56,366 bases of DNA from Candidatus Omnitrophota bacterium. Lineage in GTDB: Bacteria > Omnitrophota > Gorgyraeia > Zapsychrales > Zapsychraceae. Each line of letters starts with the position of its first letter. Positions within the stretch are counted from its first letter, which is position 1. Position numbers and translations under genes: made by a program. The DNA is taken from positions 1 to 56,366 of the forward strand of contig JAJDCB010000004.1 of the NCBI GenBank assembly GCA_029261065.1, in the 5' to 3' direction. Below, piece after piece: positions 1-12,106 of the stretch. The notes below the pieces were generated by a model. That model worked only from the letters and a program-made list of their open reading frames with translations. It had not been told where the DNA came from and searched no databases.

Positions 1-2004
1 ACCCGTTTCCGTAATGAGATCAATGTCTGTCCAATTAATGCCAGCCGTTGTTAAAACATTTAAATCTGTCCAATTGACACCAGTATCACTTAAGACATCG
101 ATATCATTCCAATTAACTCCCGCTTCTGTCAGGACTTTAAAATCTTCCCAATTTATTCCTGCATCAGAGAGCACATCAATATCTGTCCAATTAACTCCCG
201 CATCACCAAGAACACGCATGTCATCCCAATTAATACCAGTGTCTGAAAGAACATCTAAATCGTTCCAATTGATGCCAGCTTCTGATAACACTTGAAGGTC
301 ATTCCAATTGACACCTGCATCGGATAACACATTGATGTCACTCCAATTAATTCCCGTTTCACTCAACGAACGTATGTCATTCCAATTCACGCCAGCATCA
401 CTTAAGACATCAATGTCATTCCAGTTGACACCGGCTTCAGTTAAAACTTGGAGATCATTCCAATTCACACCCGCATCACTTAATACATCAATATCATTCC
501 AATTGACGCCTGCTTGAGAAAGGACTGTAAAATCGTTCCAATTGATACCCGCACTACTAAGAACATCTATGTCTGTCCAATTAATACCTGCAGTAGATAA
601 AGAGGTTAAATCCGTCCAGTTAACACCCGCGGCACTTAAAACATCAATTTCAGTCCAATTGATTCCGGCATCGCCAAGGACTTGAAGATCATTCCAATTC
701 ACACCCGCATCACTTAAGACATCAATGTCTCCCCAGTTAATTCCGGACTCTGTCATCACTTTTAAATCTGTCCAATTCACACCCGCCTCAGCTAAAGTAT
801 TAAGGTCTTCCCAGTTAACACCAGCTAAAGATAATTCACCAATGTTTGCCCAATTAACACCAGCAGAACTTAACACATCTACATCAACCCAATTAATGCC
901 TGTCTCACTTAATGCTTTAAGGTCAGACCAATTCACACCCGCATCACTTAAGACATCTATATCAGACCAATTGATTCCGGCATCACTCATCGAACGAATG
1001 TCATCCCAATTTATACCTGTGTCACTGATAACATCTATATCTGACCAATTAATACCAGCTTCACTCAATACTCTAAAATCATCCCAGTTAACACCTGCAT
1101 CAGAAAAAACATCTATGTCTGTCCAGTTAATGCCCGCCGCGGTTAAAACACGTAAATCATCCCAATTAATTCCTGCACCACTTAGGATATCGATGTCTGA
1201 CCAATTGATACCTGCTTGAGTTAAAACACTCATGTCGCTCCAATTAATACCGGCATCACTCCATACATCTATATCAGACCAATTAATTCCTGCCTCACTT
1301 AAAACTTTCCAATCCGTCCAGTTAACACCGATATCACTCATGACCTGAATATCATCCCAATTCACACCCGCATTCGATAAGGTTGCCAAGTTATCCCAAT
1401 TAATCGTTTCAGCCCAATTAATTTTAGCTCCACTCATAACAGCGATGTCCGACCAATTAACACTTGATGTGCTCATAAATTGGATGTCAGCCCAATTAAC
1501 ACCAGCATCACTTAAAACATCAATGTCTGACCAATTAATGCCAGACTCAGACATGACCGTTAGGTTATCCCAATTAACTCCTGCCGAGGCAAGAACATCA
1601 AGGTCATTCCAGTTAATTCCACTTGAAGCAAGAATTCCAACATCTGTCCAGTTAACTCCCGAATCACTTAAGACATCAATGTCATCCCAATTGATACCTT
1701 TATTCGTTAAGCTAAATAAATCATCCCAGTTAACTCCTTTATCAGTTAAGACATCAAGATCCGTCCAATTTATACCTGCCTCACTCAAAGCTCGAATATC
1801 CGTCCAGTTAACACTTGTATCAATGGTGTCCGTTACACTCTTTATACTTGTGACATCCGTTCGAAGAAGATCAACATCGTCCCAATTGATCGTATCCGTA
1901 CTCTGTTTAATAACACCAATGTCATCCCAGTTGATAAGATCTGTCTTGGCTTTTATACCAGTGATATCATCCCAGTTGCTTATAACTCGTCGTCGCGTGT
2001 CAAC
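1..2004 (-). repeat. 39-bp coding tandem repeat array (78-bp higher-order unit)
   Basis: The hexamer ccaatt/ccagtt (Asn-Trp on the minus strand) recurs every 39 bp from 31 to 1396 and, after an 18-bp phase step, from 1414 to 1804. Looser copies lie at 1882, 1927 and 1972. Alternate copies share acatc[a/g]at (Asp-Val), giving a 78-bp super-period. The array stays in one reading frame and has no conserved-repeat/unique-spacer structure. Confidence 0.9.
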
Positions 2005-2886
2005 GATGGTTGGTTTAATAACATCAAGAGAAACAAAGGCATTGTATTCGTTGGCTGTTCCAGATTCTAAGACAGTTATGTCTGCAAAGTACGTATCTTC
2101 AAAATCAGAAGGTGTCCAATTGGTGGAAGAAGTAAAAAGTTCTCGTGTTGTATTGAGTGAAAAATCCGTTGTGGCCAGACTCAATTCCGTTGTCGTTCCG
2201 TCGTTTTGATAAATCACAACAGCAGAAGTGTCACCCGTTTCTAAATCAAACTTATCATCACTTGATGCCACCCACGTTAAAATAGTGTAAGCATCATCGG
2301 ATTCATCCCAAACGGCTAAAATTTTAGGACCCGTACCTGTCTCAACATCAAACGAATTAGAAACAGTTGAAGGAAGACCGGGGGCTGTTGCAACAAGAGT
2401 AAAAAACAAACCAGACTTTGATATTCTTAACCCCTCAAAGCTGGCCACACCATTAGCAGCAACTAGTGTAGTTTCACCCTCTAAATTACCATTGCCAGGA
2501 TTGTTAAAAATATCAAGAGTAATGGGCGTTGTGTTATCAGTTTTTACAAGGTTGCCATAGGAGTCATGAATTTCAATCTCTGGTTGTCTTTCAAAAATCA
2601 AACCATGACGTTCTGAGGAAGGAACTTGTGTGAAAATTAATTTTGCAGCGGCTCCATGCTCAAGAGATTCACTTTGAGAAGAGTCTCCCGTCGTTAATCC
2701 TTCAGAGGACCCACCCGAGAATATATTATCACCAAGCGATGACTCTTCATCTCCTGCAAAACTTCCCCCCGTAAATTGCGCATAGACGACGGCGGGAGTT
2801 TGCGCAAAGACAAACATGAATATCACAAAACAAGAGATTGTTTTGTGAATGACTTGTTGAATTTTAGATTTTTTTCTGTGTTTCAT
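1..2886 (-). CDS. Secreted repeat protein with about 50 alternating 13-residue NWxD repeats (partial, C-terminus off the left edge)
   Basis: The reading frame is open from an ATG at 2886 to base 1 (962 codons) with no stop, so the gene continues outside the window. Residues 1-36 form a long signal peptide (basic start MKHRKKSK, hydrophobic core, AVVYA). Residues about 80-180 look like a bacterial Ig-like (Big) domain (DSYGNLV, ANGVASFEGLRI). Residues 183-300 are a less clear beta-rich region. From about residue 300 to the edge the protein is tandem repeats of 13 residues, consensus NWxDIxVLSxAG[IV], 47 in strict register (36 plus 11, separated by one 6-residue insert) preceded by three looser ones. 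The residue after the Ile/Leu alternates between Asp and Lys/Arg/Gln, giving a 26-residue higher unit. It is the last visible gene of the secretin/FGE cluster and is probably a surface or exported protein. I know no named family for the repeat. No strong ribosome binding site precedes the ATG. Confidence 0.85.
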   Translation of the reverse strand, partial: MKHRKKSKIQQVIHKTISCFVIFMFVFAQTPAVVYAQFTGGSFAGDEESSLGDNIFSGGSSEGLTTGDSSQSESLEHGAAAKLIFTQVPSSERHGLIFERQPEIEIHDSYGNLVKTDNTTPITLDIFNNPGNGNLEGETTLVAANGVASFEGLRISKSGLFFTLVATAPGLPSTVSNSFDVETGTGPKILAVWDESDDAYTILTWVASSDDKFDLETGDTSAVVIYQNDGTTTELSLATTDFSLNTTRELFTSSTNWTPSDFEDTYFADITVLESGTANEYNAFVSLDVIKPTIVDTRRRVISNWDDITGIKAKTDLINWDDIGVIKQSTDTINWDDVDLLRTDVTSIKSVTDTIDTSVNWTDIRALSEAGINWTDLDVLTDKGVNWDDLFSLTNKGINWDDIDVLSDSGVNWTDVGILASSGINWNDLDVLASAGVNWDNLTVMSESGINWSDIDVLSDAGVNWADIQFMSTSSVNWSDIAVMSGAKINWAETINWDNLATLSNAGVNWDDIQVMSDIGVNWTDWKVLSEAGINWSDIDVWSDAGINWSDMSVLTQAGINWSDIDILSGAGINWDDLRVLTAAGINWTDIDVFSDAGVNWDDFRVLSEAGINWSDIDVISDTGINWDDIRSMSDAGINWSDIDVLSDAGVNWSDLKALSETGINWVDVDVLSSAGVNWANIGELSLAGVNWEDLNTLAEAGVNWTDLKVMTESGINWGDIDVLSDAGVNWNDLQVLGDAGINWTEIDVLSAAGVNWTDLTSLSTAGINWTDIDVLSSAGINWNDFTVLSQAGVNWNDIDVLSDAGVNWNDLQVLTEAGVNWNDIDVLSDAGVNWNDIRSLSETGINWSDINVLSDAGVNWNDLQVLSEAGINWNDLDVLSDTGINWDDMRVLGDAGVNWTDIDVLSDAGINWEDFKVLTEAGVNWNDIDVLSDTGVNWTDLNVLTTAGINWTDIDLITETG

Positions 2887-2940: not shown

Positions 2941-4593
2941 CTATGGTGCCGTTCGGCCCAATCGTCCACCTGCAAAAATTCCTAATGACGAATCATATCT
3001 TTGGTTATATCCGTGACTATCTGGATCTTTAACAGCATACTTTCGCGTGGAGGTTTGAAAGTCTGACATATTAGATGATTGAAAATCACCTCCACGAAAA
3101 CCTGAACCAATTGTGCCTATGACACCACGAGAAGAATCAGTAGTGTCAATACCAGGCCAATCATTGTTGGTTGCGTTTCCTTCAAAACTTGTTAACACAC
3201 TTAACTCCCCATCACCATGGGTTCCTAAAAATTCTCGACCTTCTAAACGGCCAATCGTGACAACCATTTCATTTAAATTTCCGGATAACTCAAGAGCGCC
3301 GTAATAACCGGAGCCACTTGTCACACGGTTAGTTGAACTTTCTGCAAAAACACCAACGCGCAAAGCTCCTGGTTGTCCCTCAGCAATACCACCGACCCGA
3401 CCATCACCCGAACTCCAACCTAAACTGTTTCGATTAATATTGGCACTCCCATCAAAAATTTGCTCTGTTCCAATTTCATCTGTGTCTGGAAAAATTTCAC
3501 CAGCCTCACCTTGGTTGTACGAAGTGGTTCCCCAAACATATTCATTAGCTAATGGCGAAATATCAATACCGCGAGCCGTTTTTTCATATTCCAATTCTGT
3601 TAAAGGCCGTAAGCCCGCCCAGTCAGCATAAGCTAATAAATCAGGCCAAGAAACAAACGACATCGCTCGATCTGGACGCAACGTGGTCGCATCTGACTTT
3701 GGATCATTTACATCCCAACTCACGGTGTTTCGATTAACAACCCCATCAGAATTTTTTCCACCCTGAAAAGAATGGGTAACATCACGCGTCAGCTTCGCGG
3801 CATTAGAAAGCGTATTAAAAAACGCAACCCATTGGCCTTCTGTTAATTCATATTTCATGTGATAAAAGTCACCATAACCCTTAGGAAAGGATGAGGGAAT
3901 TAAGAAAATGGATCCTGTCGAACCTTCACCTGAGGCGCCTGTACTCGTATAATAATATCCATTTGTTGATGTATTTGTCGTCGTGATCGCACCTTCATTT
4001 TGAATATACCAAGGATCATTGTCGCTCGTTCCTTGTTTCAACTTATAATCTGAAGAACTATTTCCGTCTCCCGCATAAAAAGCGCCTTGTGGGACATAAA
4101 TCATTTCGATAGCAAACGCTCGATTAATCGTGTTAGCAGCCATAGCTTGATTGTCTGAAAGTCCATCTTGATTGTAATCCCAAACAAATTGAACATTTTG
4201 TGCTGAAATATTTCCAGTTGCCAAATCTGTTTTTTGCAAGAAAAAACCTTTTTCATCATTTGGAACAATCATTTCAAAACCGACGGGTGGTTGAAAGCCA
4301 GGAGGATTAGTTCCATTACTAGCCATACTGGCATGATGCCAGGTAACACCTGCATCTGTGGAATATTTAAGAAACACCCAAACAGCATCGTAATTATTGG
4401 TATCTCTCCAAGAATTTTCCCAAGTCAAATCACCTTGAAAAGTAATGGTATTAACAGCTTCATTCGTATCAACCACTTCAAAATTATCTATAGTTAGGTT
4501 ATTAGCCACAGCACCTTGAGCAGCAAACAAAACAATAAGTGCTACCAAACAATTCGTGATAAACTTTCTCAATTTTAAATTCTTTTTGGTCAT
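2941..4593 (-). CDS. Secreted FGE-sulfatase-fold (SUMF1-like) protein, copy 1
   Basis: 550 aa from the ATG at 4593, chosen because GGGAG lies about 11 nt upstream and a signal peptide follows directly (cleavage after about residue 30, AVANN). A longer frame to 4644 would overlap the upstream gene. Residues 31-155 form a module shared with the next gene (TWENSWRDTNNYDAVWVF). From about residue 160 the C-type-lectin-like FGE fold follows, with MIYVPQGAFYAGD, MKYELTEGQWVAFFN, LRPLTELEYEKTARG, ELSGNLNEMV and GSGFRGGDF. The mature protein has no cysteine, so the catalytic cysteine pair of true formylglycine-generating enzymes is missing and a binding or structural role is more likely than catalysis. 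It lies 4 bp after the paralogous gene and is surely cotranscribed with it. Confidence 0.88.
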   Translation of the reverse strand: MTKKNLKLRKFITNCLVALIVLFAAQGAVANNLTIDNFEVVDTNEAVNTITFQGDLTWENSWRDTNNYDAVWVFLKYSTDAGVTWHHASMASNGTNPPGFQPPVGFEMIVPNDEKGFFLQKTDLATGNISAQNVQFVWDYNQDGLSDNQAMAANTINRAFAIEMIYVPQGAFYAGDGNSSSDYKLKQGTSDNDPWYIQNEGAITTTNTSTNGYYYTSTGASGEGSTGSIFLIPSSFPKGYGDFYHMKYELTEGQWVAFFNTLSNAAKLTRDVTHSFQGGKNSDGVVNRNTVSWDVNDPKSDATTLRPDRAMSFVSWPDLLAYADWAGLRPLTELEYEKTARGIDISPLANEYVWGTTSYNQGEAGEIFPDTDEIGTEQIFDGSANINRNSLGWSSGDGRVGGIAEGQPGALRVGVFAESSTNRVTSGSGYYGALELSGNLNEMVVTIGRLEGREFLGTHGDGELSVLTSFEGNATNNDWPGIDTTDSSRGVIGTIGSGFRGGDFQSSNMSDFQTSTRKYAVKDPDSHGYNQRYDSSLGIFAGGRLGRTAP

Positions 4594-4597
4594 AATG

Positions 4598-6187
4598 TTA
4601 TAAACTCCCATCATACGTTCTTGCCCCACGTCCGCCCACATCACTAAAAGATGATGCTTGGCCGTTTGCGGCTTGGCTACGATCAGAAATTCTTAAAGCT
4701 GTGCTCGCATCAATAAAAGAACCGCCTCTGAGACCAGACCCTATAGCCGATGTCACGCCACGGCTTGTAACAGCATCAATCCCTGGCCAATCTAATTCAT
4801 TGGCATTGCCTTCAAATCCGCTCGCTGAACTTAAAACACCATCGCCGTGCGTTCCAGCAAACCCGCGACCAGTTGCATTACCAATTGTTACAAGCTGCTC
4901 CATTAAATTCCCAGAAAGTTCCATAACACCGTAATATCCTGCACCCGCTAAAACACGTGTAGAATTTTCTTGAGCAAAAATTCCAGATCTCAACGGACCA
5001 AGACTATAATCAGCTCCACTACTACTGTCTCCACCTGTAAAAGAAATATTGTTATAATTCGCATTTGCATTTGCTGTTAAAATCGTTTCTGTTCCCGTTT
5101 CATCGGCTCCAGAGATTGAAGTGGCCGCGGTAATGGCTATATCTCCCCAAGCAAACTCTCCTTCTGTCGGTACCAAAGGACCACGACTAATTTTTTCAAA
5201 TTCTAACTCTGTCAACGGCCTTAAAGCGGCCCAATCAAGAAAGGCAGCTAGATCCATCCAACTTAAAAAACCAACAGCTCTTGAAGGGCGATCGGTAGAA
5301 CAAGCTAAAGAAGCCCCGCTACAATTAAGAGTGTTTCTTGATTGAACTGTATCCGTTGACTTATGACCTGAGTTTGTTAAATCGCGATTTGATCTTGCAT
5401 TATTAGAAGCTAAGGCATTAAAAAAATCACTCCATTGCCCTTCTGTAATTTCATATTTCATAACATAAAAGTCTCCATACCCTTTCGGATAACTAGCCGA
5501 AATAGAAAAGGAAGAACCTGTAGGATCCTCTGTTGCATTGCCAGCTGAAGAATATAAATAACCATCGTTAGTCGCATTAGAAACACTAATCGAAGAATCG
5601 CTTGAGATGTACCAAGGATCCGTATCGGCATTTCCTTCCATTAAAGAAGCGCTACTCGTTCCATAATCTCCAACATAAAACTCACCCTCAGGGATATAAA
5701 CCATCTCTAGAGCAAAAACGTTTAATTTAACCTCACTCTCATCAGTAAATCCGCAACTAGCGTAATCAATTTTGAATTGAACTTCATTTGAAGCAAGTGA
5801 TTCAACAACACCAAAATTTTTAGGTCTGATAAATGCACCTTTTTTGTCACTTGGCACATAAATATCAATATTTGTTGAATCCCCAGCAGTAAAACCTGCA
5901 GGATTGAGGCCAACACCTGAAAGTTCACAGATATTTTTACTTATCGGAGTTACTGCTGGGTCATATAAACGAACCGTCACCCACACAGCATCATGATTAC
6001 TTTTCGTTTTCCAAGAATTTTCCCAGGAAACATCAAATTGAACCATGACAGTATCGTTAGACGGGTTTCTTTCTTCGAGTGATACATTATCGATTGACAA
6101 ATTGTTGGCAAATAGGGCAGGAACAGAAATAAAAGCTATACTGAGGATTGTCAGGAAGGAAAGGGTTATTTTAAAAACCTTTGTCAT
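4598..6187 (-). CDS. Secreted FGE-sulfatase-fold (SUMF1-like) protein, copy 2
   Basis: 529 aa with a clear signal peptide (residues 1-28, ending PALFANN) and a good ribosome binding site (AGAGGTGAT just before the ATG). Residues 29-150 are the same N-terminal module as its downstream neighbour (SWENSWKTKSNHDAVWV). From about residue 155 comes the FGE-sulfatase fold: MVYIPEGEFYVGD, MKYEITEGQWSDFFN, LRPLTELEFEKISRG, ELSGNLMEQLV, GSGLRGGSF. The C-terminal end (about residues 495-529), where catalytic FGEs carry their cysteines, has none. Four cysteines occur elsewhere in the mature protein, two in the N-module region and two near residue 290. It is the first gene after a 190-bp gap from the secretin operon, so it may have its own promoter. 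It is probably exported to the periplasm or surface. Confidence 0.88.
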   Translation of the reverse strand: MTKVFKITLSFLTILSIAFISVPALFANNLSIDNVSLEERNPSNDTVMVQFDVSWENSWKTKSNHDAVWVTVRLYDPAVTPISKNICELSGVGLNPAGFTAGDSTNIDIYVPSDKKGAFIRPKNFGVVESLASNEVQFKIDYASCGFTDESEVKLNVFALEMVYIPEGEFYVGDYGTSSASLMEGNADTDPWYISSDSSISVSNATNDGYLYSSAGNATEDPTGSSFSISASYPKGYGDFYVMKYEITEGQWSDFFNALASNNARSNRDLTNSGHKSTDTVQSRNTLNCSGASLACSTDRPSRAVGFLSWMDLAAFLDWAALRPLTELEFEKISRGPLVPTEGEFAWGDIAITAATSISGADETGTETILTANANANYNNISFTGGDSSSGADYSLGPLRSGIFAQENSTRVLAGAGYYGVMELSGNLMEQLVTIGNATGRGFAGTHGDGVLSSASGFEGNANELDWPGIDAVTSRGVTSAIGSGLRGGSFIDASTALRISDRSQAANGQASSFSDVGGRGARTYDGSL

Positions 6188-6376: not shown

Positions 6377-7159
6377 TTACCTCTCTAACGGTGAATCCAC
6401 TAATCCACGAATGAATAATTCTGCTTTTACGATTTTTTCTTTTACAAAATCAGAATCTTTCGCTGTTGGATTCAAATACAAATACATCTTGTAATGCTTT
6501 AATGCTGTTTTCTGATCATTTAACTGCTCCCCACTAACAAAAGCCAAATTAAAATGGGAATCTGGATCATCTGGCATTAAAGTAACAGCTTGATAATATT
6601 CTCGAACAGCAATTTCATATTCACCTTTTTGGAAATAGATATTTCCCATATTGTAATGAGCTTTGGCCGCATCTTCTCTTAGTCTCTCATCACCTTCAGT
6701 AAAAGCATCAATGCGTGATAACAAATCTGTTGTTTCATTTTCACGCCCCTTTACTTCCTCAGTGCTTTTTGATTTATTTGCTGCCAATAAAAACACACCA
6801 TCTGTTATTGACTTAGAATCTTGATTAGATTTTTGAATACTATTTCTCGTCGCTGTTTTACTTTTTAAAGAAGCTAATTGCATCGTATCATGAACAACTG
6901 GCATCTCGTTTTTTGTAACTTTCGCGTTCATTCTTAATTTACTAATTTGAGTTTCTAACCTTTGATTTTTCGTGGCCAAACTATGATTTTGTTCGATAAC
7001 ATTTTTTAGCGTTTCACTCATTGCTGCAACTTGCTTTTCTTTGATGGTTAGATCGGCACTTGCAAATGTTGCGCTAAGAACAAACATTACTGTCAGTGAA
7101 AGAGTTAAAGCTGTGAGACTTTTTTTCATCTTTCTTTGATTTTCATATTTTGTGGCCAT
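6377..7159 (-). CDS. Exported coiled-coil/TPR protein linked to the secretin
   Basis: 260 aa from the ATG at 7159, picked because GTGAGG sits 9 nt upstream; the frame is open to 7174 but without a better site. After a basic stretch comes a hydrophobic export signal (SLTVMFVLSATFASA), so the protein is probably periplasmic. Residues about 30-90 are a predicted coiled coil (VIEQNHSLATKNQRLETQIS). The C-terminal third holds two to three TPR units (AKAHYNMGNIYFQKGEYEIA; PDSHFNLAFVSGEQLNDQKT). It starts 38 bp after the secretin stop. TPR proteins of this kind often assist secretin assembly (the PilF/PilW type), so a pilotin- or scaffold-like role is inferred from position only. Confidence 0.8.
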   Translation of the reverse strand: MATKYENQRKMKKSLTALTLSLTVMFVLSATFASADLTIKEKQVAAMSETLKNVIEQNHSLATKNQRLETQISKLRMNAKVTKNEMPVVHDTMQLASLKSKTATRNSIQKSNQDSKSITDGVFLLAANKSKSTEEVKGRENETTDLLSRIDAFTEGDERLREDAAKAHYNMGNIYFQKGEYEIAVREYYQAVTLMPDDPDSHFNLAFVSGEQLNDQKTALKHYKMYLYLNPTAKDSDFVKEKIVKAELFIRGLVDSPLER

Positions 7160-7197
7160 AATTTTTATCCTCACTTGATTAAATTTATCTTCTATTT

Positions 7198-8802
7198 TTA
7201 GTCTGTACTATATGACTTAAACGGCTTAATTGTGCCTTGAACTTTCATGTAATCATCTTTACCCGTAACAATCCTAGGTGTAATAAATATGACAATTTCT
7301 GTTTTAGCAAAATCATCATTTGTTCGACCAAACATAGGGCCAAAAAGTGGAAGATCCATAAGCACAGGAAAACCTTTCTTTGTGTGAACCTTATCATTCT
7401 TCTTTAAACCACCCATAATAATTGTGTGAGCATCTTTAACAAGAACTGTCGTTTCAACTTCAGTTTTATTGACTTGAGGAATTCCGCCCCCTTGAGAGGA
7501 AACCTCTCCAACAACAGATGAGATTTCTGGTCTTAATCGCATTGTGACGTAACCATCATCATTAATGGTCGGTGTCACGTTTAGTTTTAAACCAACGTCC
7601 ACAAACCGAACATCTTCACTAGTAATGGCATTATCACCTGTTCCGGAAGTCGTTGAGATAATATAGGGAACAGTATCACCGACATGAATCTTTGCTTCTT
7701 CATTATTGGTAATTAAGACCGTTGGATTCGATAAGATTTTTGTATCACTAACCTGCTCTAATGATCGAACCGTTGTCTCAAAAGCATCTTCACTAAAATC
7801 ACCTACAGCAAATTGACCATAATGACTAGCCAGTTCGTCACTAGCAGAAATTTTAGCGTTTTGGCTACCCAGATAGAAGTTTGAAAAACTTAATTTTTTT
7901 ATTTGACTATTGCTGCTGTCCCTAAAATCAAGTTGCCAGTCAATACCGACATCATATTTTGGTTTCATTACGATTTGTAAAATACGGGCGCTTATTAATA
8001 CTTCTTTTGTAGGAGAATCTAATTTAGCTAATATTTTCTCGATTTCCTTTTTGCGATCTGGAAATACACGAACAATGAGCTTATTGGAACGCTCATCAGC
8101 CATAATTGATCCAACACTCTTAGCATCAATTCGCGATCTTAGCTTATCTGCCACAACATCAGCACTAGCATACTGCAATGTGTAAACAATTGTCTCAAGC
8201 GGCTTCTCTATTTCTTTAATAGCAGCCTTCATAAGTGCAATCCCCTCAGCAGTATCAATCATAACAACAGATCCCGTGTCTTCATCTATAATAATCTTAC
8301 CGACATTGCTTTTAATACTGTCCAAAGCAGCCAAAACATAACTTGGTTTGGAATATTTAAGATGAATAATCTCAACCATTGTTTTATCACTAAAACTTTT
8401 TCCAAACATCGCTTCATACTCTTGCTCGGTCAAAACTTGTACAATATTACCCTGAACTTTGTAGGCCAAACGATTGGAGATAATGACAATATCTAGAACA
8501 TCTTTGACCGATACGTTTTCTAAGAAAACAGTAGCACGCCCTTCGACACTTGGACTTATAACGACATTAAATTCACCCTCGTCAGCAAGGAACTTAATTA
8601 TGTCGACAATATTCATATCCCGTATTTCAAGCCTTATCTTTCGTTTCATTCTTTCAGAAAGAGCGCCTTTGACATCGGAAATCTTAATGGGCTTCCCATC
8701 AGCAAACAAATCTGTTGCTTGACCTATCATGCCCGCAAAAGCACAGGTAAAGACAACCAAAGGAATACACCATTTTAAAGATTTATTATTTTGAGTTATC
8801 AT
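7198..8802 (-). CDS. Outer-membrane secretin (GspD/PilQ family)
   Basis: 534 aa with a signal peptide (residues 1-35). An STN-like N0 domain follows at about 55-110 (EIRDMNIVDIIKFLADEG), then NolW-type N1/N2 modules at about 140-275 (IIHLKYSKPSYVLAALDSI; YTLQYASADVVADKL), then the secretin pore domain at about 300-525. Pore signatures visible are KIHVGDTVPYI, DVGLKLNVTPTI, ETTVLVKDAHTIIMGGL, LPLFGPMFG and the final EIVIFITPRIV. The protein should form the multimeric outer-membrane channel of a type II secretion or type IV pilus-like machine. Its start overlaps the GspC-like gene by 17 bp, implying translational coupling. It is shorter than GspD (about 650 aa), mainly because it has fewer N domains. 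No assembly ATPase, platform protein or pseudopilin genes lie in the window. Confidence 0.92.
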   Translation of the reverse strand: MITQNNKSLKWCIPLVVFTCAFAGMIGQATDLFADGKPIKISDVKGALSERMKRKIRLEIRDMNIVDIIKFLADEGEFNVVISPSVEGRATVFLENVSVKDVLDIVIISNRLAYKVQGNIVQVLTEQEYEAMFGKSFSDKTMVEIIHLKYSKPSYVLAALDSIKSNVGKIIIDEDTGSVVMIDTAEGIALMKAAIKEIEKPLETIVYTLQYASADVVADKLRSRIDAKSVGSIMADERSNKLIVRVFPDRKKEIEKILAKLDSPTKEVLISARILQIVMKPKYDVGIDWQLDFRDSSNSQIKKLSFSNFYLGSQNAKISASDELASHYGQFAVGDFSEDAFETTVRSLEQVSDTKILSNPTVLITNNEEAKIHVGDTVPYIISTTSGTGDNAITSEDVRFVDVGLKLNVTPTINDDGYVTMRLRPEISSVVGEVSSQGGGIPQVNKTEVETTVLVKDAHTIIMGGLKKNDKVHTKKGFPVLMDLPLFGPMFGRTNDDFAKTEIVIFITPRIVTGKDDYMKVQGTIKPFKSYSTD

Positions 8803-9412
8803 AGCGTATTATTATCTCCTCATCTTCATAGCCTAGTTTGATACTATCGGCATAAATGGTTTTTACAAGTATATCGCCCAATTTGTCTCCAACTTTCTTA
8901 AAATGGGTTTCACTTTTCACGGTATCCTCAATCATCGCCGCAGCACTTTCAACACGGTCAAACCAAGATATACCGACAAGCTTTAAGTGTTGGGTTTTCT
9001 CAACGATCCGCCTATTCTCATCAGAAACATCAACATCTGCTCTTAAATTTTGTTCTTCGGTAAATGGGTAAAAAATGTTGCGGGCTGAAAACTTCATTCT
9101 GTAGAGTGGCAATGGTCTCTTGTCTGGTTCAAAATTATCGTTCTTATTTCCGCTAACCGGCCCACCTAATTTTGTGGCAATGTTTACAGGTTTCCCCATC
9201 TTCTTTTTACCTTTCACAAATTCATTAACAGCAAATCCCGCACCCGCAACAATCAAAAGTAACAATACTAAATTAAGAACTTTTATCAAGCCAATAACAT
9301 CAACAGATTTTTTTGGCTTCTTTTCTTCAGCTTTATTTTGCACAGCACCACTTGCTTCTAACATCTTTAAAAGCTTTTGGTCTGCCGTTTCTTTTTTTGC
9401 TTTAGCTGTCAT
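8786..9412 (-). CDS. GspC/PilP-like inner-membrane linker protein
   Basis: 208 aa. It has a basic cytoplasmic N-terminus (1-40), one transmembrane segment at about 42-64 (LIKVLNLVLLLLIVAGAGFA), and a periplasmic C-terminal domain at about 130-205 that resembles the GspC HR domain (LKLVGISWFDRVESAAAMI...VGDKLGDILVKTIYADSI). In type II secretion this domain contacts the N0 domain of the secretin. Gene order supports that role: it ends inside the start of the secretin gene and follows the ExeA-like ATPase. PilP is the alternative family, but either way it bridges inner membrane and secretin. The start is the ATG just inside the 54-bp gap from the upstream gene. Confidence 0.75.
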   Translation of the reverse strand: MTAKAKKETADQKLLKMLEASGAVQNKAEEKKPKKSVDVIGLIKVLNLVLLLLIVAGAGFAVNEFVKGKKKMGKPVNIATKLGGPVSGNKNDNFEPDKRPLPLYRMKFSARNIFYPFTEEQNLRADVDVSDENRRIVEKTQHLKLVGISWFDRVESAAAMIEDTVKSETHFKKVGDKLGDILVKTIYADSIKLGYEDEEIIIRYDNSK

Positions 9413-9466: not shown

Positions 9467-10366
9467 TTATACTTGATTAATAACTTCAACACCCTCATTT
9501 TTCTCCGCCGAGAAAAACTGTTTTTCTTTTTCAATGACATCCCTAACAAACGTGTTATCAACAATTTTCTGATCTTCCATAACTAATTCTTTCATAATTT
9601 TATGACACAACATGGTAATTTTTCTTGGGTAACCTTTTGTGTAATTATAGACCTCACTAATCGCATCATCTAAAAAAATCTTAGCACCACCTTTGTATCC
9701 CGCTTTATTAATTCGAAAATTTATTAGCTCTTTAGTTTCATTGACATCCAAAGGATTTAATGTGAATTTAAAACTTATGCGATCTAAAAAATTACTCATA
9801 TGCACAATTTTGGAATAAAGTTCAAGCTGACCTAACAAAACAAGTTGGATTAATTTATGCTCATTCGTTTCGAAATTTAACAAAATACGTAATGATTCCA
9901 AAGTGGCCAAATCCAACTTTTGAGCCTCATCCACAATCAAAACTATAGTGCGATTCTCCTTAAGCGTTTTTTGAATCAAAAACGTCTCAATCACATCTCT
10001 AAGCTCCAATAAATCACAATTTTTCACATCTAGATTATCAGGCAAATCAATATCCATGTTTTTCACAAGTGACAGTAAGAATTGATCTTGTGTACTAAAA
10101 GAAGGATCAAGAATCATATGAAAGATGATATCTCCGCGTTTATTAAGCTCATGTAGAAGTTTTCTAGAAAGCGTGGTTTTTCCCGTTCCAACATCGCCTA
10201 AAATGACGGATAAGCCCCTTCTTAGGCGTAATTCTATCAATAAGTTCGTTAAAGCGAGATCATGTTCGCGGGTATGATAAAAAAATTCGGGATTAGGACT
10301 GGTAGAAAAAGGCTCCCTTTGGAAACCAAGAATGGAATAATAACCTAATGTATTATCTGCGGGCAT
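9467..10366 (-). CDS. ExeA/GspA-like AAA ATPase
   Basis: 299 aa. The N-terminus YSILGFQREPFSTSPNPEFF is typical of the ExeA family. Walker A is GDVGTGKTT (57-65) and Walker B is IVLIVDEAQ (about 141-149). The rest is an AAA+ fold with a C-terminal lid (KGYPRKITMLCHKIM). In Aeromonas, ExeA with ExeB helps place the secretin in the cell wall. This protein lacks the C-terminal transmembrane and peptidoglycan-binding parts of full ExeA and ends soon after the AAA domain. It is the first gene of the run ATPase - GspC-like - secretin - TPR. A promoter candidate lies 35-65 bp upstream. A general MuB/TniB-like AAA role is less likely given the neighbours. Confidence 0.85.
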   Translation of the reverse strand: MPADNTLGYYSILGFQREPFSTSPNPEFFYHTREHDLALTNLLIELRLRRGLSVILGDVGTGKTTLSRKLLHELNKRGDIIFHMILDPSFSTQDQFLLSLVKNMDIDLPDNLDVKNCDLLELRDVIETFLIQKTLKENRTIVLIVDEAQKLDLATLESLRILLNFETNEHKLIQLVLLGQLELYSKIVHMSNFLDRISFKFTLNPLDVNETKELINFRINKAGYKGGAKIFLDDAISEVYNYTKGYPRKITMLCHKIMKELVMEDQKIVDNTFVRDVIEKEKQFFSAEKNEGVEVINQV

Positions 10367-10443: not shown

Positions 10444-11436
10444 TTATTTGGCTTTTTTTAATAGGTTTTTAGCAAAAACATTTATAATCCCCGTCGAGAA
10501 ACCAAATGTTCTTGCAAAAGCTCTCATAAACATAACAAAACCATAAAAAAAAAGTTTTCTTTTCTTTTTTTGCATGATCCAGCTGTAGTAAAGCTCTATC
10601 ATTAATAAACACAAAGAGATTGATGCGCCGCCGATAAAACCTAAAGAAGAATTTACAAAGATGCCATAAATAATACTCATGCAAATCAACAAAGAAAACG
10701 GAACCTCTAACATATCCTTCCAAAATGTGTACTGATCCCCACCAACCATGTTTGGATGCGTTTTATAAAGCCAAGCTCGCCAAAATCCATGTCGAAATTG
10801 CTCCTGAAGATACTTTTTAACACTAGAAGGGTGGTTATGACGCACAATAGCATCTAAGCAAAAATACATTTCATACCCCTTTTTAGTGATTTTATAACTT
10901 AGATCATTATCTTCTCCACTGGCATGGAGATAGGACTCATCAAAACCACCAACCTGCTTAAAAATGGACTTACGCATCCCCACGTTATAACTACCAAAAA
11001 CAACCGTTTTTTCACCCATCAAATACTGATGACGATAAATTATCTCCTGATGTACGCATAAGGCCAATGTGCTTTCTGGATTAGCAATACCATAGCTGCC
11101 CGCCACGACATCTGCTTTTTTATGATTAAAATAAATCATCGCATTTTTAATCCAGTCTTGATCGGCAAAGCAATCGGAGTCCGTAAAAAAAATAACATCT
11201 CCCTTGGCCATTGCAGCCCCTTTATTCCGAGCCTTGGCTGGACCAGCATTAGTTTGATGAAAATATCTCACTTGGTTATATCGTTTTATTAGCTCAGCAG
11301 ATTTATCGCTAGAACCATCATCAACAACAATAACCTCGATAGGTTGATAACTTTGTTGAAAAACACAATCAAGCACTTGGCTTATCGTTTGTTCACAATT
11401 GTAAGCAGGAATAATTATACTGACGAGAGAAGACAT
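10444..11436 (-). CDS. GT2 family glycosyltransferase with C-terminal membrane segments
   Basis: 330 aa from the ATG at 11436, which lies 4 nt after the stop of the preceding methyltransferase gene and starts the GT-A fold directly (MSSLVSIIIPAYNCE). A longer in-frame start would overlap that gene. GT2 signatures are VIVVDDGSSD, the acceptor-side DSD motif (FFTDSDCFAD) and GGFDESYLHASGEDNDLS (ED in the GxxDE/ED region). Two to three hydrophobic segments follow at about 230-300, so it is anchored at the inner membrane. It is last in a four-gene operon with another GT2, a DUF2304 protein and a methyltransferase, fitting lipid- or glycan-linked sugar assembly. Substrate unknown. Confidence 0.85.
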   Translation of the reverse strand: MSSLVSIIIPAYNCEQTISQVLDCVFQQSYQPIEVIVVDDGSSDKSAELIKRYNQVRYFHQTNAGPAKARNKGAAMAKGDVIFFTDSDCFADQDWIKNAMIYFNHKKADVVAGSYGIANPESTLALCVHQEIIYRHQYLMGEKTVVFGSYNVGMRKSIFKQVGGFDESYLHASGEDNDLSYKITKKGYEMYFCLDAIVRHNHPSSVKKYLQEQFRHGFWRAWLYKTHPNMVGGDQYTFWKDMLEVPFSLLICMSIIYGIFVNSSLGFIGGASISLCLLMIELYYSWIMQKKKRKLFFYGFVMFMRAFARTFGFSTGIINVFAKNLLKKAK

Positions 11437-11440
11437 GGAT

Positions 11441-12106
11441 TTAAGGTTTTCGGGCCACTGTGAATAACAGCATTCCAAATAGACGTCCTACCCATTTATC
11501 TGGAGAGAAGGCAAAAGGAAACGTATTAAGACCTCCTTGATTAACAACAAACGCCCCATTTCTTTGATTTAAATCAAGCAGTTGTTTAAATACAAAAGGC
11601 GTTTCTTCAATGCCTGGCATATACAAAGGACGAATGATTTCCCACGGAGAAAATCGATTAGGCACAACTGTAACAATGACACCATCTGTTGTTAGAAGAC
11701 TAAACAAATTTGTAAAAATAACATCTTGCTCTGCTGCTGTAAAATGTTCAAATAATCCGTCTGTAAAAATAATATCAAAACGATTATCAATATCTCCCGC
11801 CAAATTCGCTCTTAAAAGATCTTTTTGTAATAATGTCGTTTGACCCTGTGTCATGGTTCGCGCTATGTCTAATGCTTCTTGTGAATAGTCTAAAGATGAG
11901 GTTTTCATCCCGCTATCACAAAAGTATTTTGAAAAAAATCCACTCCCACATCCCGCATCTAATGCACACCCACCGGGCTTTACATATTCTTGCAAGACCG
12001 ACATAATTCTTTTTTTAGACCAACTGATCTTTGTAAATTTCTTTGTTTGATCTAAACTCCAAAAATGATTCCAATCTTGCGATTGAGGCATTGCTGTTTT
12101 ATTCAT
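11441..12106 (-). CDS. Class I SAM-dependent methyltransferase
   Basis: 221 aa. Motif I is ALDAGCGSGFFSKYF (about residues 48-62), followed by an acidic motif II (SLDYSQEAL) and motif IV (FDIIFTDGLFEHF). The start ATG overlaps the stop of the preceding DUF2304 gene (TAATG), so the two are translationally coupled. Set between two GT2 genes, it probably methylates a sugar or lipid-linked intermediate, but the substrate cannot be read from the sequence. Confidence 0.82.
   Translation of the reverse strand: MNKTAMPQSQDWNHFWSLDQTKKFTKISWSKKRIMSVLQEYVKPGGCALDAGCGSGFFSKYFCDSGMKTSSLDYSQEALDIARTMTQGQTTLLQKDLLRANLAGDIDNRFDIIFTDGLFEHFTAAEQDVIFTNLFSLLTTDGVIVTVVPNRFSPWEIIRPLYMPGIEETPFVFKQLLDLNQRNGAFVVNQGGLNTFPFAFSPDKWVGRLFGMLLFTVARKP

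Follow-up and report, generated by a model that had tools for sequence, protein, structure and literature searches.

Comparison of sequences across the phylum Omnitrophota establishes a 13-residue NWxD repeat as a new repeat family in a fixed protein architecture, and places the giant gene that carries it in close linkage with a T2SS-like machine, a predicted membrane-anchored protein termed c0, and an F-type ATPase without subunit a. On these grounds, we consider it somewhat probable that the NWxD array is a stalk of tunable length in a giant protein exported by the Sec pathway, encoded in a conserved Omnitrophota locus and anchored by c0 beside a rotary ATPase. Giant ORFs and odd F-type ATPases are already known in Omnitrophota, the former having been described as poorly conserved and without a clear function; the presence of a conserved giant, an apparent anchor, and an a-less ATPase in one cluster joins scattered observations into a single testable machine.

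Results

The giant gene and its repeat array

The window, i.e. the whole stretch of 56,366 nucleotides that was analyzed (G000:C24:1-56366), begins at a contig end, and an open frame on its minus strand runs off this left edge at base 1. The N-terminal part of the gene starts at 2886, position 2004 being no gene boundary, and contains the following features.

1..2886 (-): first 962 aa, at the N terminus, of the giant protein with the NWxD repeat, from the ORF list; the left edge is the contig end
2776..2886 (-): signal peptide MKHRKKSK...FVFAQTPAVVYAQ, recognized by eye on the translation; relatives have similar N-termini
1978..2775 (-): head domain of about 266 aa, kept in relatives (compared by eye)
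1810..1977 (-): transition made up of 15-residue-type units (NWDDIxxIKxxTDT), which the family conserves
1..1809 (-): 13-residue array of 46 full units with a two-flavor alternation, D/N versus R/Q/K/T after NWxD[ILF]
1402..1419 (-): 6-residue stub NWAETI breaking the array; the alternation phase is the same on both sides

The array thus comprises 46 consecutive, near-exact full units (aa 360-962) and one stub, the unit being numbered G1-[IV]2-N3-W4-x5-D6-[IL]7-x8-V9-L10-S11-x12-A13, and the head domain has no significant Pfam match. The 3' end of the gene lies at G000:C26:1-1257 (+), where contig C26 opens inside the same repeat and the gene stops after 418 aa; since relatives have a head, an array, and a tail in this order, we infer that the ends of C24 and C26 belong to one gene. 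Because no sequence overlap was found between these two contig ends, repeat units are missing between them and the repeat number of the window gene is incomplete. Contig C26 also encodes, about 27 kb farther downstream, a different long repeat protein of low complexity (L070:15921-17999, minus strand); it is rich in Ser, Ala, and Asp and has ESLDATLN-type motifs, and its ORF is open at the edge of the fetched sequence.

The conserved positions of the unit were assessed over 6,290 units, which were selected by [NDS]W so that positions 3 and 4 are partly imposed by the selection: G1 is kept in 85%, D6 in 82%, L/M10 in 90%, and S/T11 in 91%. Only 2 Pro and 0 Cys occur among 81,315 repeat residues. 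The sequence-only reading of the window had associated the repeat with no named family, and this held true, as no stretch-level match of the array to curated families was found in Pfam, NCBIfam, PHROGs, or PDB sequences. The best matches of a PDB profile search, to a flagellin entry (E = 0.003, on a tag-like repeated stretch) and to LDLR (E = 0.055), were judged spurious, and matches on the repeat to NCBIfam GlrX, DMC1, and RimP and to PHROGs are chance sums across repeats. A whole-protein Pfam score of 63 bits, over the cut-off, for Ntox33 (PF15533) would make the protein a secreted toxin, an explanation to which we give next to no credence, since the score adds up many sub-threshold repeat pieces of which 0 single stretches pass, and the C terminus is a coiled tail with no toxin domain. 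The Ntox33 match on window 1-2886 is an example of a false annotation arising from summing over repeats.

With regard to the fold, AlphaFold2 gave helices from a 70-row alignment (pLDDT 44) and strands from a single sequence (pLDDT 46), two unusable models that contradict each other, and Foldseek with the single-sequence model returned nothing significant (best E = 0.2). A helix capping box, formed by NWxD and a subsequent Gly stop, was considered and would suit helices, whereas G/D/N at position 8 would suit a turn equally. Known short-repeat solenoids (β-solenoids, TPR/HEAT-like α-solenoids, and the YWTD repeats of LDLR) likewise have long exact-length runs and conserved hydrophobic positions, but the NWxD array has no convincing sequence match to any of them. 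From geometry alone, a rod of 794 units would measure about 0.2-0.4 micrometre at common solenoid pitches, which would be roughly comparable to an ultra-small cell.

Two-flavor alternation within the array

In the sequence-only reading, the residue after NWxD[I/L/F] was held to be Asp, once Asn, in every second copy and Lys, Arg, Gln, Thr, Asn, or Ser in the others, in an exact frame and register. The alternation itself was clearly recovered on the minus strand: position 8 is D in 19/23 and N in 2/23 units of one parity, and units of the other parity have R, Q, K, T, G, etc. there but in no case D. The mutual information between position 8 and parity is 0.82 bits against an expected 0.18 (p = 2e-4 from 5,000 shuffles of unit order). 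Asn therefore occupies the Asp slot twice rather than once, and Gly has to be added to the residues of the other slot, from which Asp is indeed absent; similarly, the frame and the phase of alternation hold as claimed but the register is interrupted by the stub. Position 7 also alternates (I versus L, p = 0.001), as does position 12, four residues past position 8 (D versus E, p = 4e-4), and I/V directly before NW leans with parity. The expected excess of correlation at 26 over 13 residues was found by autocorrelation, with identities of 0.46 at lag 13, 0.52 at 26, 0.45 at 39, 0.49 at 52, 0.43 at 65, and 0.48 at 78 residues, such that lags 26, 52, and 78 exceed lags 13, 39, and 65. In agreement with this, even unit lags among the 46 units lie above shuffled unit order (z = +3.7 for lag 2 and +3.0 for lag 4) and odd lags lie below it.

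An amplification by 78-bp units had been proposed as the source of this pattern. If it were recent, silent sites should match better at lag 2, yet the excess in the window is only slight (z = 1.1, with lag 1 depressed at z = -2.8 and a matched-codon identity of 46% in shuffles); on the other hand, synonymous sites reach a lag-2 z of 2.3-5.0 in the relatives L028, L032, L034, L038, L052, and L060, leaving the proposal weakly supported. The alternation is stronger in the protein than at silent sites, and a pair duplication is plausible but, to judge from these sites, would be old. It is quite possible, although we lean the other way, that the alternation has no function and is the neutral trace of an ancestral duplication of two units, a view which bears on the alternation alone and does not conflict with the stalk reading; the synonymous excess in these six relatives and the differences in alternation between lineages speak for it, whereas the near-background silent sites of the window, together with a D or N in 21/23 units of the Asp slot, suggest selection at the protein level. 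The 26-residue alternation is a lineage-specific super-unit that probably arose from an old pair duplication and has been maintained at the protein level.

The 26-residue super-unit is not shared by the whole family. A super-period of 26 residues is present in the window, L028, L032, L034, L036, L038, L052, and L060, with the Asp alternation seen in only some of these (the window, L028, and L032); the super-period is 39 residues in L014, L019, L046, and L053 and absent in L024, L042, L057, L058, and L062, and even the 13 units on C26, at the 3' end of the same gene, show no alternation. The conserved unit is therefore 13 residues, not 26, and the location of the array in the locus is unchanged although the super-period varies. 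These differences also bear on the idea of a solenoid or filament with alternating charge, which is not supported as a general principle, the Asp alternation being restricted to some members. In its specific form, a self-associating filament or layer would be held together by alternating acidic and basic faces with the 26-mer as structural unit; despite the significant alternation in the window, L028, and L032, we regard this as improbable, because relatives with the same locus differ in super-period, the 3' units of the window gene do not alternate, the arrays as a whole have a strong negative charge (net -1.3 per unit), and Lys/Arg are scarce at position 8 in most members.

Distribution and architecture of the family

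The repeat is present in 32/55 genomes of the order, including the genome of the window, and in 31/190 genomes sampled from the phylum Omnitrophota. When 84,980 species genomes were scanned with patterns from the window sequence, which detect close relatives only, 38 loci with an array were obtained; their record titles read Omnitrophota, Omnitrophica, or related candidate names, with one MAG titled 'bacterium' only. The largest complete example (G045:C70) has 10,962 aa, a mass of 1.196 MDa, a pI of 4.05, and 545 consecutive exact 13-residue units, the longest run in exact register in this uncharacterized family, whose repeats have hardly any Pro and lack Cys. The head and the tail of the protein are conserved as well: a signal peptide and a YTGGSYGGDEESSLG-type start are followed by the head, three 15-residue-type units, the array, and a tail of TLFGKI-type segments and coiled coil that in most members ends with a V[VI]KT[WY][FY]ES-type motif. 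An assembly artifact was ruled out by the occurrence of the array in dozens of independent, diverged MAGs with ORFs as long as 10,962 aa, and a plasmid or viral origin by the lack of relatives in IMG/VR and PLSDB. In L036:1-7400, on the same contig as L097, frame changes split the array into four open frames, reflecting a decaying gene or sequencing errors.

Conserved secretion genes around the giant gene

The genomic context, which the sequence-only reading had no access to, proved more informative than the repeat pattern. In the window, the giant gene is preceded on the same strand by the following genes, listed from the upstream end.

10444..11478 (-): family 2 glycosyltransferase (cluster c9; PF00535), near the upstream end of the conserved cluster
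9467..10366 (-): ExeA-like/XrtA-associated AAA ATPase (c10; PF13401; TIGR03015 below cut-off)
8786..9412 (-): GspC-like inner-membrane protein (c8; weak match to PF11356 T2SSC, E = 0.07), conserved in 10 loci
7198..8802 (-): secretin of GspD/PilQ type (c7; PF00263, 3e-48; NCBIfam PilQ and GspD below cut-off)
6377..7174 (-): TPR protein (c6; Pfam)
4598..6187 (-): second FGE-sulfatase-domain protein (c5; PF03781)
2941..4644 (-): FGE-sulfatase-domain protein (c5; PF03781), in conserved position

An all-against-all comparison of locus neighbors gave the same order upstream of the giant gene, namely the glycosyltransferase, the ExeA-like ATPase, the GspC-like protein, the secretin, the TPR protein, and usually two FGE-sulfatase-domain proteins. 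The last two, tandem and secreted in the window (2941-6187, minus strand), have the same placement before the giant in most family loci. Downstream, in 18/18 loci (named or own) holding the 3' end of an array, c0 and then F1 α follow; as far as the loci reach, these are succeeded by ε, which is a β-sandwich only, one to three c-like genes, a b-δ fusion, γ, β, and GspE. In the genome of the window, the genes past GspE encode GspF, a Peptidase_MA protein, pseudopilin and T2SSK-type proteins, PilM-PilN, and more. The complete locus is present without a contig break in G045:C70, where the ORF of the largest example sits between the upstream and downstream sets. A secretin, GspE, GspF, T2SSG, and T2SSK were all detected, and the Pfam assignments T2SSG, T2SSK, T2SSE, and T2SSF suggest that the machine is T2SS-like and not a plain T4aP system. 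The locus GspE (L008:8764-11004) combines an MshEN domain with a PilZ domain at its C terminus, and cyclic di-GMP may therefore control the machine.

The c0 protein and its fusions to giant proteins

The c0 protein has a signal peptide, two similar halves predicted to be periplasmic, and a C-terminal hydrophobic/transmembrane helix. In the 190 genomes, full-length c0 was found in 30 and the array in 31, the two occurring together in 27 (Fisher p = 3e-25, uncorrected for relatedness); in the four genomes with an array and no full-length c0 found, assembly gaps are possible. In other genomes, a search of the phylum with c0 also revealed parts of c0 within ORFs of about 2,000-12,900 aa. In six fusion loci, L089-L094 (families f15, f20, and f44, with L094 belonging to f1, the family of the window), the giant ORF has c0 at its end and is followed by b-δ, α, γ, β, and GspE/GspF, with two other genes between in L089. 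No NWxD array was found in these six fused giants, which, where periodic, have repeats of about 94-104 aa, and one of which carries Kre9/KNH Ig-like domains. The occupation of one slot by two unrelated kinds of array is as expected of a spacer or stalk, and the fusions indicate that c0 belongs physically with the giant protein. The placement of c0 between the giant and ATPase genes, or at the end of the giant itself, suggests that the giant is kept at the inner membrane and not released.

An F-type ATPase without subunit a

The ATPase of the locus has α, β, γ, ε, c, and b-δ, with the P-loops, the Arg finger of α (R349), and the catalytic Glu of β (E251) being invariant. The c proteins (72 aa) are PF00137-like, slightly below cut-off, and b-δ matches PF00213 OSCP above cut-off. 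No subunit a gene was found among the genes of the locus. In the window's own genome, the single subunit a is encoded on C17 beside an ordinary ATP synthase, and none of 15 other genomes with the locus has subunit a on the locus contig, where it is either encoded elsewhere or missing. It is missing altogether in 5/15 (G001, G017, G039, G142, and G143), though the locus α and β are present; these are MAGs of 91-95% completeness, for which a single absence is weak evidence and five together are not. In G001, G017, G039, and G143, the locus α/β is the only F-type pair, other catalytic pairs being classed as V/A-type by length. Owing to the absence of subunit a, the locus complex is unlikely to be an ATP synthase. 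However, the helix-2 carboxylate is kept in most c subunits, so ion coupling with an unrecognized a-type partner is possible. Three c-subunit-like genes are in tandem at L008:4496-5190 (G000:C26), the middle one lacking the helix-2 carboxylate and the outer two having Glu; this three-gene set suggests a mixed ring, most relatives having one c gene and one divergent c' gene. The genome of the window (C17, C26, C19, and C7) encodes three rotary ATPase catalytic pairs, i.e. canonical F, locus F1-like, and V/A-type (by length), as well as one more distant ATP-synt_ab protein.

Discussion

If the array is a stalk, sequence and gene order, on which all functional readings here are based, suggest that c0 would hold the coiled tail of the giant at the inner membrane, next to the rotary ATPase and its c ring, and the head and stalk would reach outward, perhaps through the secretin. 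More speculatively, rotation of the c ring by ATP, uncoupled from ion flow, could move or tension the stalk, which might help the bacteria to attach to other cells or surfaces or to move over them. Co-localization and fusion are no proof that the ATPase acts on the giant, as the ATPase might serve the secretion machine. In a passive counterpart of the model, the giant would be an adhesin or coat exported by the T2SS-like system, with a long adhesive stalk, and the a-less ATPase would power secretion or pilus dynamics and exert no force on it. This is in keeping with the sharing of a cluster by T2SS genes and the giant, the Sec signal of the giant, the Ig-like domains in a giant that takes the same slot, and the proposal of Seymour et al. 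(PMC10066038) that giant ORFs are adhesins and the ATPase is part of attachment and motility. We nevertheless hold the passive adhesin to be somewhat unlikely, because the gene order or the fusion puts the apparent anchor c0 between the giant and the ATPase or on the giant itself, and because GspE alone normally powers a T2SS. At the opposite extreme, the channel-less rotary F-type ATPase would, via c0, turn or pull the megadalton stalk through the T2SS-like secretin, making it a motorized arm with which nano-sized Omnitrophota could seize or move over other cells; we regard this full version as doubtful.

With the type II secretion system, the locus shares the secretin, GspE (MshEN), GspF, the T2SSG major pseudopilin, T2SSK, N-methylated pseudopilins, and PilM/PilN-type inner-membrane proteins, but it differs by its embedded F-type ATPase, the giant gene, the PilZ-bearing GspE, and a weakly recognizable GspC-like protein. 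Within the phylum, Seymour et al. (2023; PMC10066038) described a non-respiratory 'symbiotic' type-2/3 F-type ATPase that all classes of Omnitrophota encode next to T4aP-type genes, and in their main text treated the giant ORFs of the same genomes separately, as poorly conserved. Their loci are alike in phylum, in having an F-type ATPase beside T4P/T2SS-type genes, and in the giant ORFs; no mention was found in the main text of the repeat, a giant gene in the ATPase locus, c0 or its fusion, or the missing subunit a.

The locus also invites comparison with the gliding machine of Mycoplasma mobile (G1-ATPase), which likewise has an extra F1-like ATPase without subunit a. This ATPase works with very large surface leg proteins. 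It has been proposed to drive gliding (PMC11864180), and by analogy a similar transmission of force in Omnitrophota is plausible. By NCBIfam score, the locus subunits are closer to ordinary atpA/atpD than to the gliding-subunit models NF045863 and NF045858, for which they reach 365 of 600 and 427 of 850 bits, below cut-off. If the ATPase does move the stalk, surface mechanics would be a use to which rotary ATPases have also been put in a two-membrane cell, in a lineage distant from Mycoplasma. Whereas Mycoplasma type 2/3 clusters have no recognizable Fo subunits, b and c included, and contain unrelated membrane proteins (PMC3369863), the Omnitrophota loci keep c and the b-δ stalk and have a T2SS with an outer-membrane secretin as well as c0.
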